Assembly: GCA_021324685.1 (NCBI GenBank)
Contig: JAJPIQ010000045.1
Coordinates: forward strand, 1-64,000
Source: Bacteroidota bacterium
GTDB lineage: Bacteria; Bacteroidota; Ignavibacteria; Palsa-1295
DNA: 64,000 nt
Direction: 5' to 3'
The position numbers and the translations under genes are program-made. Below, piece by piece: positions 15,622-22,802 of this stretch; positions within the stretch are counted from its first letter, which is position 1, and the number at the start of each line of letters is the position of its first letter. The notes under the pieces are model-generated. The model had not been told where the DNA came from, searched no databases, and worked only from the letters and a program-made list of their open reading frames with translations.

Positions 15622-15715
15622 TGCCGGGAAGCGCATGAGCGATCATGGGCGGCGAGGGGATGAGCGATCATGCTCGGCAAGTGGATGAGCGATCATGCTC
15701 GGCTGCTTCCCGGCA
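15622..15715. repeat. Three-copy 25-bp palindromic array inside an 11-bp inverted repeat
   Basis: The core ATGAGCGATCAT starts at 15635, 15660 and 15685, exactly 25 bases apart. Each core is a small hairpin (ATGA, loop GCGA, TCAT), and copies 2 and 3 continue GCTCGGC. The array is bounded by TGCCGGGAAGC at 15622-15632 and its exact complement at 15705-15715, so the region can fold as one large stem. The same core recurs inside a coding region at 19036-19047 and in altered form at 19263-19274. Confidence 0.85.
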
Positions 15716-15762
15716 CAACTGGAGCGTTTGGAACTCGATTCTTTCATCGTCCTGTTGCAAAA

Positions 15763-16068
15763 ATGATGAATCTGAGCACAGAACATATCGTTTCCGATCC
15801 GGATATGTGCTTCGGTAAGCCTCGCATTTCTGGAACGAGGCTTACCGTGAAGGACGTGATCTCCCATCACCGATTTCAAGGGATGTCTGCCGAGGAGATT
15901 GCCGACGATTGGAAAGTGTCGCTCGCAGCGGTCTATGCTGCGTTCGCCTATTATTACGATCATAAAGAGGAGATCGACCGGTCGTTCATCGAGGACAAGC
16001 AGTTCATACAATCGTTGCGTGCTTCGAACCGGTCCCTGTTGGACGCCTTGAAACACCGTTCGATCTGA
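15763..16068 (+). CDS. DUF433 antitoxin-like protein
   Basis: A 101-residue DUF433 protein (FGKPRISGTRLTVKDVI followed by the helix-turn-helix-like segment MSAEEIADDWKVSLAAVYAA). DUF433 proteins are commonly paired with PIN-like DUF5615 toxins as the antitoxin. ATG 15763 (or the adjacent ATG at 15766) is preferred over an upstream start, because the upstream in-frame part is only the translated palindromic array. The stop is immediately followed by the toxin start. Confidence 0.82.
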   Translation: MMNLSTEHIVSDPDMCFGKPRISGTRLTVKDVISHHRFQGMSAEEIADDWKVSLAAVYAAFAYYYDHKEEIDRSFIEDKQFIQSLRASNRSLLDALKHRSI

Positions 16069-16398
16069 GTGACAGAGATCCGGTTCCATCTGGATGAGAG
16101 TGTTACTTCCAAAGTGGCTCGCGCGTTGCGGGTTCAAAAGATCGATGTGACCACTACCCCGGAAGCCGGGCTGCGTTCCAGACCCGATGAATCGCAATTC
16201 GAATACGCGCAGCGTGAACGGAGGGTTCTCATTACCAGGGACAGCGATTTCCTTCGCCTCGCTTCGAAGGAGTGGGACCACTTCGGAATTCTTTATTGCA
16301 GTCCTGAAACTCCGATCGGCGAAATTGTACTCGCATGCCTGATGCTGCAAAGCAGCCTGACTCAGGAGGACATGCGTGGCCGCGTTGAATATATTTGA
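16069..16398 (+). CDS. DUF5615 PIN-like toxin-type nuclease
   Basis: A 109-residue Mut7-C/PIN-like protein. The acidic motifs FHLDES near the N-terminus and LITRDSDF in the middle are those of the family. Its GTG start abuts the DUF433 stop with no gap, a typical toxin-antitoxin arrangement. The target RNA is unknown. Confidence 0.82.
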   Translation: MTEIRFHLDESVTSKVARALRVQKIDVTTTPEAGLRSRPDESQFEYAQRERRVLITRDSDFLRLASKEWDHFGILYCSPETPIGEIVLACLMLQSSLTQEDMRGRVEYI

Positions 16399-16551
16399 TC
16401 CGTTACAAGGTCATTCCGATTTGCTCTTAGGCTCCCCTTTCCAAGGCTCCCCTTTCTATGCCTCCCCCTTTCGCCGCACCCAGATTTATTTGAGACATCG
16501 CGGTTACCTTTTGCCGCTTTGTGGGTCTTCTCATGAGTGGAGATCTCTTCT

Positions 16552-19140
16552 ATGAACCTTCGAATGGCGGTTTGTGCGAGTTTCTTGATGATTGCGGGGA
16601 TTCCGGCCCACGCGCAGTGGGTGCCCACGAACGGACCCTATAGTGGCAATGTCGATTGTTTTGCGGTCATGGGAATAAACTCACTGGCACCGGTCCTCTT
16701 TGCGGGGAATAATAGCGAAGTGGCCAGTGGCGTGTTCCGTTCGACCGACAATGGCAAAACCTGGTCCTACCCGGAATTGGGAGCGAATGTACGTTCCCTT
16801 GCGGTCATGGGCACCAATCTTTTTGCCGGAACGGAGTATGGCGTCGATCTTTCGACCGACAGCGGCGCGAGCTGGAAAGAAGTCGATTCGTTGCTGCCGT
16901 CGACCCCGTTCAATGCGTTTGCCGTCCTGGGAACAACTATTTATGCCGGTACGGGCCTCGCGTACCCGCCCACGGGCCATGGCGTTTTTTGCTCGACCGA
17001 TACCGGCAAAAGCTGGACCTCGGACGGTAACGGCTTACCGGCTAATAGTTCCGTCATTTCCCTCCAGGCCACCGGAACGATTCTCGTTGCAGGCGTGGCC
17101 TGGCTCGATAGTGCCGGACTCGGAAGTGGCGGAGTGTTCCGTTCTACCGACCGTGGCGCAAGCTGGACGAACGTTACCTCCGGCTGGCCCTTCAACGCTC
17201 CGGCGACGTCCTTTGCGCTAAGCGGTAATGACCTCTTTGCAGCAACGCAGACCGACGGCGATTTTCTCTCCACGGACAGCGGGAGAAGCTGGACCAGTAT
17301 AGGAAATGGCGGTGCCTGCTTTGCGGCGATCGGTCCCAATCTTTTTGCAGGCGGCTTTGGCTCCGTTGTTCGCTCGACGAACAATGGCATAAGCTGGACC
17401 GCATCGGGTTCCGGCCTCCCGCAAGCATCCGTCCAGGCCCTTGTTGCGATCGGCACGAACGCGCCCGAGCCCATACTTTTTGCGGGAACGAACGATAGCG
17501 GAGTATTTATCTCGACCGACGAAGGCGCAAGCTGGAACGCGACGGGATTGACGAGCATGGATGTGCGAGCGCTTGCAACGATCGGCGAGAATTCACCCTC
17601 GCAGGCGATCGTTGCGGGGTCTCCGTTCTCGGGCATTTTTCTCTCGTCGGATAGCGGTGAAAGCTGGGCACGTGCGGGAGGTACCACAACCTGGCCCTAT
17701 GCCGGAGATGCCGCCACCTGCTTTGCCGTGAGCGGAACGAATCTATTTGCCGGATCCCAGGATGGCGTTGCGCGGACGACCGATGGCGGTGCGCACTGGA
17801 CGGCTCCGGATAAACGGTTCCAGGGCGACACGGGGGCGAGAAGTGGTACGGTGACCGCCTATGCCGTGATAGGTCCGGGTACCGCCTCACCCATACTCTT
17901 TGCCGGAACAGATGACATCGGCGTTTATCGTTCGACGGATAACGGCGCAAATTGGATTGACGTCAATAACGGCTTAAGCTATTTCATCGAGTGGACGACC
18001 GTCAAAGCCCTTGCGGTGATCGGCACAAACACATCGTCATCCACGCTCTTTGCCGGGTTGCAGGACCGTGGGATCTATCTCTCGACCGATAGCGGCAACA
18101 GTTGGCAGGAGTCGGGCCTCAATGAAAATACGGTCCAGGCCTTCGCCGTGATGAACTCCAATTCGTCGTCGCCCATGATCTTTGCCGGCACAGCCGACAG
18201 CGGCGTCTTTCTCTCTACCGACAGAGGCTCCCGTTGGAAGCATGTAGGACTGACGCACCAGGATGTCCGCGCCCTCGCGGTATGCAATGGGAACTCGCCG
18301 TCGCCCATGCTCTTTGCCGGGACGTATGGCAACGGGATCTTTTTCTCTCCGGACCACGGCACGACCTGGATTTCGATCGAGGATGGCCTGATAAACCCGT
18401 ATGTACAAGCGCTTACCGTGACCGGCGGGAACACCTCGTCGCCGATGCTCTTTGCCGCGACGAACGGCAGCAGCGTGTGGCGCCGCTCCCTCTCCGAACT
18501 GTCAACCGTGTCGTACTCGATCGGCGTCAGTGCCGATTCCCTCGACTTCGGGAGCGTCCCGGTCGGGAAGGATTCCGTTCGGATCGTGACGGTGTCCAAT
18601 GTCGGGAAATCGCCTCTTACGATCCAGTCCTTTCAGTTAACGCCCAAACAAAATGCTTTTTCAACCAGCGACCTCTCCGCCAAAGTGGAACTCCTTCCCG
18701 GAGAGTCGTTCACCTTCGAGGTATTTTTTCAGCCATCGAAAGCAGGAGTTTTTTCGGCTAATCTCGAAATCGTTTCGGAAGCAGAGAGTGTGAATATCAC
18801 ATTCACCGGCAGCGCATACGCAGCCGCTGAAATTACCCCTCAATCGGACCCAACTTCCCTGCTAACTATTTTCCCCAACCCCTTCTCCCAATCGACCACC
18901 ATCTCCTTTACTTCGCAAGCGAGCGGTTATGCATATATCTCCATCGTCAACGCGCTGGGAACGGAAATCGCGCATCTCTATTCGGGCGAGCTGGCGGCCG
19001 GGGAGCATCGCTTCGTATGGAACCCGGCCAGGAGCATGAGCGATCATGCTGCCGCGCCACGCGTGCCGGATGGAATGTATGAGTGTCTTGTGCGAATGAA
19101 TGGGCGGATGGAAACCGTACCGATCATGCTCGATCGATAA
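16552..19140 (+). CDS. T9SS-exported Asp-box (BNR) beta-propeller protein with choice-of-anchor D domain
   Basis: An 862-residue secreted protein. A signal peptide (about residues 1-20, ending AHAQ) is followed by about 13 Asp-box motifs of the form STDxGxxW, often with LFAGT, as in sortilin/sialidase-like propellers. Then come an ASPM/SPD-2/hydin-like domain (SLDFGSVPVGKDSVRIVTVS) and a T9SS type A sorting domain starting at IFPNPFSQSTTISF. ATG 16552 is preferred; a GTG at 16537 would add five residues. The sorting domain has about ten extra residues (with MSDHA) encoded by a palindromic element. First of three tandem paralogues. Confidence 0.85.
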   Translation: MNLRMAVCASFLMIAGIPAHAQWVPTNGPYSGNVDCFAVMGINSLAPVLFAGNNSEVASGVFRSTDNGKTWSYPELGANVRSLAVMGTNLFAGTEYGVDLSTDSGASWKEVDSLLPSTPFNAFAVLGTTIYAGTGLAYPPTGHGVFCSTDTGKSWTSDGNGLPANSSVISLQATGTILVAGVAWLDSAGLGSGGVFRSTDRGASWTNVTSGWPFNAPATSFALSGNDLFAATQTDGDFLSTDSGRSWTSIGNGGACFAAIGPNLFAGGFGSVVRSTNNGISWTASGSGLPQASVQALVAIGTNAPEPILFAGTNDSGVFISTDEGASWNATGLTSMDVRALATIGENSPSQAIVAGSPFSGIFLSSDSGESWARAGGTTTWPYAGDAATCFAVSGTNLFAGSQDGVARTTDGGAHWTAPDKRFQGDTGARSGTVTAYAVIGPGTASPILFAGTDDIGVYRSTDNGANWIDVNNGLSYFIEWTTVKALAVIGTNTSSSTLFAGLQDRGIYLSTDSGNSWQESGLNENTVQAFAVMNSNSSSPMIFAGTADSGVFLSTDRGSRWKHVGLTHQDVRALAVCNGNSPSPMLFAGTYGNGIFFSPDHGTTWISIEDGLINPYVQALTVTGGNTSSPMLFAATNGSSVWRRSLSELSTVSYSIGVSADSLDFGSVPVGKDSVRIVTVSNVGKSPLTIQSFQLTPKQNAFSTSDLSAKVELLPGESFTFEVFFQPSKAGVFSANLEIVSEAESVNITFTGSAYAAAEITPQSDPTSLLTIFPNPFSQSTTISFTSQASGYAYISIVNALGTEIAHLYSGELAAGEHRFVWNPARSMSDHAAAPRVPDGMYECLVRMNGRMETVPIMLDR
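19033..19050. repeat. Palindromic element inside the coding region of a T9SS sorting domain
   Basis: AGCATGA at 19033-19039 pairs with TCATGCT at 19044-19050 around GCGA, giving an 18-base hairpin that contains the same ATGAGCGATCAT core as the array at 15622-15715. It is in frame and encodes SMSDHA. The paralogue ending at 22802 lacks about 30 bases here. Confidence 0.75.
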
Positions 19141-19254: not shown

Positions 19255-19305
19255 GGAGCGTCATCAGCGATCATCGGCTCCTGCAAGGAAGCAGCGCTTC
19301 CTTGC
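19255..19305. repeat. Two adjacent hairpins, one related to the ATGAGCGATCAT element
   Basis: GGAGC at 19255-19259 and GCTCC at 19277-19281 enclose ATCAGCGATCAT, a one-base variant of the element core. One base further, GCAAGGAAGC at 19283-19292 and its exact complement at 19296-19305 form a 10-bp stem with a 3-base loop. Both lie in the 231-base spacer between two BNR genes. Confidence 0.7.
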
Positions 19306-21560: not shown

Positions 21561-22802
21561 ATGACACCAAAACGGATTCTCTTACTTGTCCTTGTTTTTT
21601 CACTCATACATTTCGAGAGTGCCCGCGCGCAGTGGAGGCAGACGCTCGGTCCGCCATGGGGAGCGGATAAGGTACTGTGTCTCGGTGAGAATAATGGGGA
21701 CCTCTTAGCGGGCCTGCTTAACTTTGGAGTGAACGTTTCGACCGACGGTGGAAATAAATGGACAAACCCGCAAACGTATCCCCGCGATAATTCGGTCTTC
21801 GCTTTCGAAGAAGTAGGGTTGCACGAGCTACTGGGAATCGAATATGGCGTGATGATTGCGCAGAACCCCGTGACCACATGGTCTTATATCAATACGGGAC
21901 TTGACGATAGTCATTTTTATGCCGTTACCTCGTTCTTTTATGGTAATTCTATGTTGCTGGCGGGAACCGAGAATGACGGTATTTATTCGGCAACATTCGT
22001 CGGCCCGGACAGCATCGTCGGATGGACTGCGATCAATAAGGGCCTGCCTGGAACGATTACAAGTGCTACCGTCACGAGCTTTGGGTACGATAATAACGGC
22101 AATGTGGTCGCTGGTATTGATCCCTGCGGCTTATTCGTTACCACGAATAACGGGCAAAGTTGGAGTTCCTACGGATTGCTGAATACTCCAATCGATGCAT
22201 ACGTCAATATCGGATATACCCATGTTGCCGGTACGCCTACTGGTATATACATATCTACGGACAATGGCAAACACTGGAATCAGACGAATCCATCGAGCAC
22301 AAACTCTCTTTCGAGAGATGTCGTATACGGGAACGTATATGCTGGAACGAACAATGGGATATACCTCTCGCGCGATAGTGGCGTTACATGGTACCAAGCC
22401 AGTGAAGGGCTGGCCGATACGATCATTACTTCACTTTATGTCGCAAACGGCTACCTCTTTGCAGGCACGGGAAGTCATGGTGTCTGGCGCCGCCCGCTTT
22501 CCGATTTCGGAATTAGTTCTGTTGTGCAAACGCCTGCAGCTTCCAAACCTGAAATACAAGTCTATCCGAATCCCCTTTCCCAAGCCACCACCATCTCATT
22601 CTCCTCGCAATCGAGCGGCTATGCCGATATCTCCATCGTAAACACGCTGGGAACGGAAATCGCGCATCTCTATTCCGGCGAGCTGGCGGCCGGGGAGCAT
22701 CGCTTCGTATGGAGCGATCCCACGGTCAGTAATGGGATGTATGAGTGTCTTGTGCGGATGAATGGGCACATGGAAACCGTGCCATTGGTGCTGGCCAGAT
22801 AA
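21561..22802 (+). CDS. T9SS-exported Asp-box (BNR) protein, third paralogue
   Basis: A 413-residue protein, the shortest of the three tandem copies. The signal peptide (about residues 1-24) ends ARAQ and is followed by the same QW start of the mature protein. Four Asp-box repeats are clear (NVSTDGGNKW, FVTTNNGQSW, YISTDNGKHW, YLSRDSGVTW); intermediate blades are degenerate. The T9SS domain begins VYPNPLSQATTISF. ATG 21561 is preferred over an upstream TTG at 21507, because it starts the signal peptide directly. Confidence 0.84.
   Translation: MTPKRILLLVLVFSLIHFESARAQWRQTLGPPWGADKVLCLGENNGDLLAGLLNFGVNVSTDGGNKWTNPQTYPRDNSVFAFEEVGLHELLGIEYGVMIAQNPVTTWSYINTGLDDSHFYAVTSFFYGNSMLLAGTENDGIYSATFVGPDSIVGWTAINKGLPGTITSATVTSFGYDNNGNVVAGIDPCGLFVTTNNGQSWSSYGLLNTPIDAYVNIGYTHVAGTPTGIYISTDNGKHWNQTNPSSTNSLSRDVVYGNVYAGTNNGIYLSRDSGVTWYQASEGLADTIITSLYVANGYLFAGTGSHGVWRRPLSDFGISSVVQTPAASKPEIQVYPNPLSQATTISFSSQSSGYADISIVNTLGTEIAHLYSGELAAGEHRFVWSDPTVSNGMYECLVRMNGHMETVPLVLAR

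Follow-up and report, generated by a model that had tools for sequence, protein, structure and literature searches.

Why does the same hairpin core occur three times at regular spacing between genes, and once more, in frame, inside a BNR/sortilin-like gene? The question is raised by a stretch of 64,000 nucleotides, called the window in what follows, which is part of contig C40 of a Bacteroidota genome of 3.47 Mb in 89 contigs. The core, ATGAGCGATCAT, has exact copies at positions 15635, 15660 and 15685, and at position 19036. With dinucleotide content preserved, chance would give 0.017 copies in the window, where 4 are observed, and 0.93 genome-wide, where 18 are; the reversed control pattern has no match at all. 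For totals of hairpins, a control by reversed sequences is invalid, and was left unused there. Our answer, to which we give a probability of about 0.75, is that the core belongs to a tiny dispersed palindromic element of one genus of Kapabacteria, which inserts into many contexts, including genes in frame.

An original prediction, made from the window itself, described three cores at a spacing of 25 bases within an 11-bp inverted repeat. The exact positions and the full complementarity of the two arms, which enclose the first three copies, bear this out (all features on the + strand):

15622..15632, left arm of the 11-bp inverted repeat, TGCCGGGAAGC (sequence and fold)
15635..15646, hairpin core ATGA-GCGA-TCAT, copy 1 of the intergenic array (sequence)
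15660..15671, hairpin core, copy 2, 25 bases past copy 1 (sequence)
15685..15696, hairpin core, copy 3, 25 bases past copy 2 (sequence)
15705..15715, right arm of the inverted repeat, GCTTCCCGGCA (sequence and fold)

The core had also been called palindromic. It is not a perfect palindrome, but it does have a 4-bp stem with a loop of 4 bases, ATGA-GCGA-TCAT.

A short hairpin dispersed in one genus

The side-by-side alignment of 80 copies from several genomes yields the consensus (N2-4)ATGA-NCRA-TCAT(N2-4), of which ATGAGCGATCAT is the hairpin tip. Constraint is limited to ATGA-NCRA-TCAT and to the next 2-4 bases on each side, and these outer bases are variable yet complementary. Among the 76 copies from the genus, Watson-Crick pairs number 67 at the first outer position (39 are G-C and 25 are C-G), where shuffling gives 34.9 on average, 63 at the second, where it gives 52.9, and 43 at the third, where it gives 23.2; from position four outward, pairing has little or no excess. 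The loop has 4 nucleotides, and the stem has 4 core pairs plus usually 2-4 more, or 6-8 in total, rarely more. The element is around 18 nt long (about 16-22 nt) and is a hairpin throughout: 20-mers taken alone fold as hairpins, with energies of -8 to -11 kcal/mol.

Subfamilies are specific to lineages. The outer bases GG..CC are those of genome G006, and GC..GC those of genome G000; loops are mostly GCGA or GCAA in G000, and GCGA, TCGA and CCGA with similar frequencies in the sample from genome G005.

Every one of the seven sequenced genomes of the genus has the family, in a copy number between 5 and about 100. The GCRA form, ATGAGCRATCAT, has 23, 42, 43, 5, 65, 20 and 19 matches in these genomes, to which the forms with TCGA and CCGA loops add many copies in G005, G006 and G009 (the TCGA loop, being self-complementary, was counted on both strands). 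Genomes from the family's other genera match ATGAGCRATCAT 0 to 6 times, at or near background. Spread beyond the genus was considered and rejected: a scan of GTDB genomes with an 18-mer gave repeated matches only in metagenome-assembled genomes of Kapabacteria type, and single matches elsewhere. A phage origin was rejected too, the matches in IMG/VR being single per contig, as chance would give. Further copies of the core, for which the original prediction suggested a search, are thus many, both in the genome, with its 18, and in the genus. A literature search on Kapabacteria and palindromic sequences returned nothing relevant.

Copies are found in intergenic DNA, in terminator-like stems, in a partial copy of 5S rRNA, in other palindromic repeats and within genes, and the sites are mostly not common to different species. 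An all-against-all comparison of flanks detected no long flank in common, except at orthologous loci and in nested repeats, and a longer autonomous element was rejected on this ground.

Some copies are in tandem, at spacings of 15-25 bases; positions 196-258 of contig C227 of G006, for example, hold four copies of ATGACCGATCAT at an exact spacing of 17 bases, an array that resembles that of the window. A conserved near-palindrome in so many copies, some of them tandem, could be the binding site of a DNA-binding protein or of a chromosome-organising factor, multiplied by selection and local duplication. However, such a site fails to explain whole 18-nt blocks, with variable paired outer bases, in conserved enzymes and in repeats, and we consider this explanation very improbable.

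Another explanation is a functional RNA hairpin, mostly with a GNRA tetraloop, which would be placed by selection, for instance because it is bound by a protein or stabilises transcripts, and would not be mobile. GCGA and GCAA loops do predominate in several genomes, and there are copies in terminator-like stems (loci L001 and L010), 5' of 23S rRNA (L016) and in the partial 5S rRNA copy. Moreover, flanking genes are co-oriented with the element in 24 cases versus 9, and in 31 versus 13 if copies in genes are included (p about 0.01), the genes being simple codon-bias calls; this modest excess of the sense orientation could reflect either RNA-level selection or a strand bias of insertion. Against selection for an RNA hairpin, the G005 sample has TCGA and CCGA loops at about the frequency of GCGA, three coding genes hold the element in antisense, species mostly differ in their sites, and the tips of existing RNA stems show no excess of insertion points (p=0.65). 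Preferential insertion at such tips is rejected on the latter value, and a strict GNRA-only motif on the frequent TCGA and CCGA loops of sister species. Selection of an RNA hairpin in a broader sense seems improbable to us, if somewhat less so than a protein-binding site.

Empty sites in proteins, RNA genes and repeats

The fourth core of the window is, as predicted, an exact match within the coding region of a BNR gene with the C-terminal domain (CTD) of the type IX secretion system (T9SS). The features used here, again on the + strand, are:

16537..19140, BNR/sortilin-like gene with T9SS C-terminal domain, bearing the in-frame copy (sequence)
19033..19050, in-frame copy with 3 outer base pairs, AGC-ATGAGCGATCAT-GCT (sequence, paralogue alignment, structural model)
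22672..22802, 3' end of the element-free paralogue, which serves as empty-site reference (alignment)

The BNR protein reads AGEHRFVW-NPARSMSDHAAAPRVPD-GMYECLVR where its paralogue reads AGEHRFVW-SDPTVSN-GMYECLVR: between identical flanks, it has the 10 extra residues, MSDHA included, that had been reported as absent from the paralogue ending at 22802. The original prediction also suggested that such residues would be present only where the DNA palindrome is, and this agrees with the CTDs compared, which are those of paralogues: none has the DNA element, and in every one the linker from W to GMY is shorter than NPARSMSDHAAAPRVPD. In an AlphaFold2 model built from three sequences, of modest quality (mean confidence score, pLDDT, 70.3), the insert falls between predicted strands 72-78 and 96-104, and residues 85-90, with a pLDDT below 50, are the lowest-confidence part after the N-terminus. 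The MSDHA residues are thus predicted to lie in a poorly ordered or disordered loop between two strands.

No strict orthologue of the BNR gene was found, and for this reason the strongest proof of insertion comes from other genes, in which 1-11 orthologues provide the empty site. Nine coding loci, assembled in a composite query, were searched in 13 genomes and their orthologues aligned; the gene names, apart from HtrA, were assigned from sequence alone rather than by a family search. In G005, PyrK has an extra 45 nt, or 15 residues, which 11 orthologues lack; a small unnamed protein has an extra 21 nt, or 7 residues, missing from 6, with the element in antisense. In G006, a D-Ala-D-Ala-ligase-like protein has 18 nt, or 6 residues, absent from 10 orthologues, and a ferredoxin has 18 nt, or 6 residues, again with an antisense element, the sole orthologue compared being clean. 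HtrA of G000 has gained 39 nt, or 13 residues, from two hairpins near its N terminus, and 7 orthologues are without them. Finally, an AddB/RecB-like protein of G005 carries 15 nt, or 5 residues, read in a different frame as DERSS; 4 of its 6 orthologues are clean at this place, and the other 2 are also variable in length there. In these six proteins the element is in frame and absent from orthologues, as Rickettsia palindromic elements are in unrelated genes, and it occurs in both orientations; a conserved peptide is not found. Together with the further copies in the genome, these empty sites support the predicted in-frame insertion of a palindromic repeat into a protein.

The peptides encoded by the element are MSDHA or MSDHP, DERSS, DDRSS or DDRSY, and MIAHP. 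Since reading frame and orientation differ among genes, the peptide is a by-product: what spreads is the DNA palindrome, not MSDHA. The array does read MSDHA in the frame used by the BNR gene, as had been pointed out, but this carries no meaning, because the frame and the strand of the element change from gene to gene. Several genes reading MSDH(A/P) might suggest a protein-level tag or epitope spread by selection; we give this next to no credence, as other genes read the remaining peptides, most copies are noncoding, and the varied frames and orientations in the orthologue alignments contradict it.

The best-defined net insertion in the alignments measures 18 nt. A copy of 5S rRNA at C7:57086, without the normal 5' end, bears the hairpin with a net gain of 18 nt over intact 5S. 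The 45-nt insert of PyrK is itself a repeat, rich in C and abundant in G005 (CTCCTTTTCAAGGAGGGGGCAGGGGGTGGTC), within which stands AAGCATGAGCGATCATGC, again a net 18 nt; locus L015 of G000 is arranged in the same way, and the nested copies at L053 and L015 give a net gain of 18 nt as well. Copies of the element are likewise found inside repeats of the form TGTCATTGCGAGGAG...CGACGAAGCAATC.

Proposed mobility and relation to known palindromic families

The data show directly that the element is dispersed, restricted to the genus and split into lineage-specific subfamilies, that its outer bases pair, and that it is inserted in frame in both orientations where orthologues have empty sites. In the mechanism that we propose, a palindromic element of only about 16-22 nt, with ATGA-NCRA-TCAT as its conserved tip, would proliferate in the genus. 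New copies would land in coding sequence as well as between genes, in terminator-like stems and in other palindromic repeats; those in genes would survive if they add a net length divisible by three and fall in a tolerant loop, the protein gaining 5-15 residues. Copying may go through a single-stranded hairpin intermediate, with an enzyme probably acting in trans, either a Y1/HUH transposase or a repair or replication route.

Several observations weigh against a mobile element. No transposition event was seen, and no two strains were similar enough to define the precise ends of an insertion or a target-site duplication. The genus does have Y1 transposases, but without enrichment beside the element. 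In T9SS domains the length of the linker varies anyway, which weakens the case for insertion in the BNR gene; the same holds for GrpE, Fur and a histidine-rich region (L054), less clear examples in which the segments are variable in length. Some matches to the 12-mer are due to chance, such as L066 in an HsdR-like gene, where the flanks are unpaired.

The element could also be a repetitive extragenic palindrome (REP) moved, like GTAG REPs, by a Y1/HUH tyrosine transposase of the REP-associated type (RAYT) encoded in the same genomes. The hairpin has the size of a REP, each genome of the genus has 5-11 copies of Y1_Tnp genes, and an element lies no more than about 0.8 kb from two of the Y1 genes. 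However, only 2 of some 33 Y1 loci are near an element, where a density estimate predicts about 1.2, and G002, from another genus, has five Y1 genes but only 3 element matches. Neither an unpaired GTAG tag at the hairpin foot nor a RAYT gene flanked by the repeat is seen above chance: GTAG occurs in 0 and 1 of 61 flanks, where 0.9 is expected. CGTC, counted as such and not separately as TGTC or CCTC, occurs in 2 left and 5 right flanks of the 61, against 2.5 expected on each side. A RAYT-driven REP is thus unlikely, though less so than a functional RNA hairpin.

Palindromic DNA in frame in proteins is best known from Rickettsia and a few other REP-bearing species. Rickettsia palindromic elements (RPE) are found between genes and in frame in unrelated genes, and they, like intragenic REPs, are believed to be accommodated by linkers or loops (PMC10969869, PMC3733652); for REPs of CGTC type, which include RPE-4 and RPE-6, a dedicated transposase is not known (PMC10969869, PMC3733652). 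The comparison with Rickettsia made in the original prediction holds for behaviour, the Kapabacteria element being found, like RPE-1 and the CGTC-type RPE-4 and RPE-6, between genes and in frame in unrelated genes. It does not extend to membership: the element has neither CGTC nor GTAG tag, no conserved peptide and no RAYT enrichment, and it differs from RPEs by its unit of about 18 nt, its several frames, its two orientations and its Bacteroidota-related lineage.

CGTC REPs have a stem of 8-9 bp, a loop of 4-5, intragenic units and species-specific subfamilies (PMC3733652). The element resembles both the CGTC and GTAG superfamilies in these last two respects and in its short stem-loop, but neither tag is enriched at the foot of its hairpin, and there is no conserved unpaired tail. 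The GC clusters of yeast mitochondria are tiny palindromic units that merge and nest, with a copy number variable between relatives and an open mechanism (PMC4478555). The element is similar to these and other organelle hairpin elements in being tiny, in nesting and in varying in copy number; yet GC clusters are organellar, mostly intergenic, and have short putative target-site duplications, whereas the element is bacterial, chromosomal and found within protein genes. Miniature inverted-repeat transposable elements, with terminal inverted repeats of 15-30 bp, a body of 70-300 bp and a target-site duplication, differ from a unit of about 18 nt that is all hairpin. We keep the element out of the named families because the defining features tested, namely tags, conserved peptide and RAYT linkage, fail: among small palindromic elements it is a new variant, set apart from RPEs by these features.

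A stronger version of the mobile reading is tentative: the element might be a still active, tag-less, minimal (around 18 nt) mobile hairpin, with hardly any sequence besides its stem-loop, using a route distinct from that of RAYT REPs, and an ongoing source of new segments of 5-15 residues in bacterial proteins. The Kapabacteria hairpin is among the smallest known cases of selfish-looking DNA built into proteins, in an uncultured lineage, and its unit is so small that mobility would rest on little beyond the hairpin itself. With seven related genomes that offer subfamilies, loop variants and empty sites, the spread of a hairpin and its absorption by proteins become testable questions.

Neighbouring genes and other repeats

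On the + strand of the window, 3' of the BNR gene, the sequence at 19263..19274 is a copy of the core with one mismatch, ATCAGCGATCAT, possibly a decayed one. Directly downstream of the array, at 15763-16398, genes for DUF433 and DUF5615 (PIN-like) proteins stand in a toxin-antitoxin-like arrangement.

In a 400 kb sample of G005, L304-L323 include many copies of a palindromic repeat rich in C, CCC(T)CTCCTTTTCAAGGAG(A)GGGGCAGGGGGTGGTC or ...AGGGGAGAGGT, often paired head to head in intergenic DNA; the G000 sample has one copy only. The TGTCATTGCGAGGAG...CGACGAAGCAATC repeats are seen at L305, L308, L310, L316, L319, L322 and L323 in G005 and at L337 in G000. Their apical palindrome differs in nearly each copy, and some enclose the ATGA hairpin; we take them to be probable CGTC-type REPs by the tag described for that family (PMC3733652).

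The spacer upstream of 23S rRNA (L016, L041) holds the element in both G000 and G005, in different surroundings, and also a second small repeated hairpin, GAT-GTGA-ATC. In several genomes of the genus, fragments of the 3' half of 5S rRNA, terminator included, are repeated away from intact 5S genes (L078, L083, L057). Finally, a cobalamin riboswitch at L010, positions 1101-1404 (contig C19 of G000), has a long insertion in a variable arm that includes GCATGAGCTGTCATGC, an element-like hairpin with another loop.
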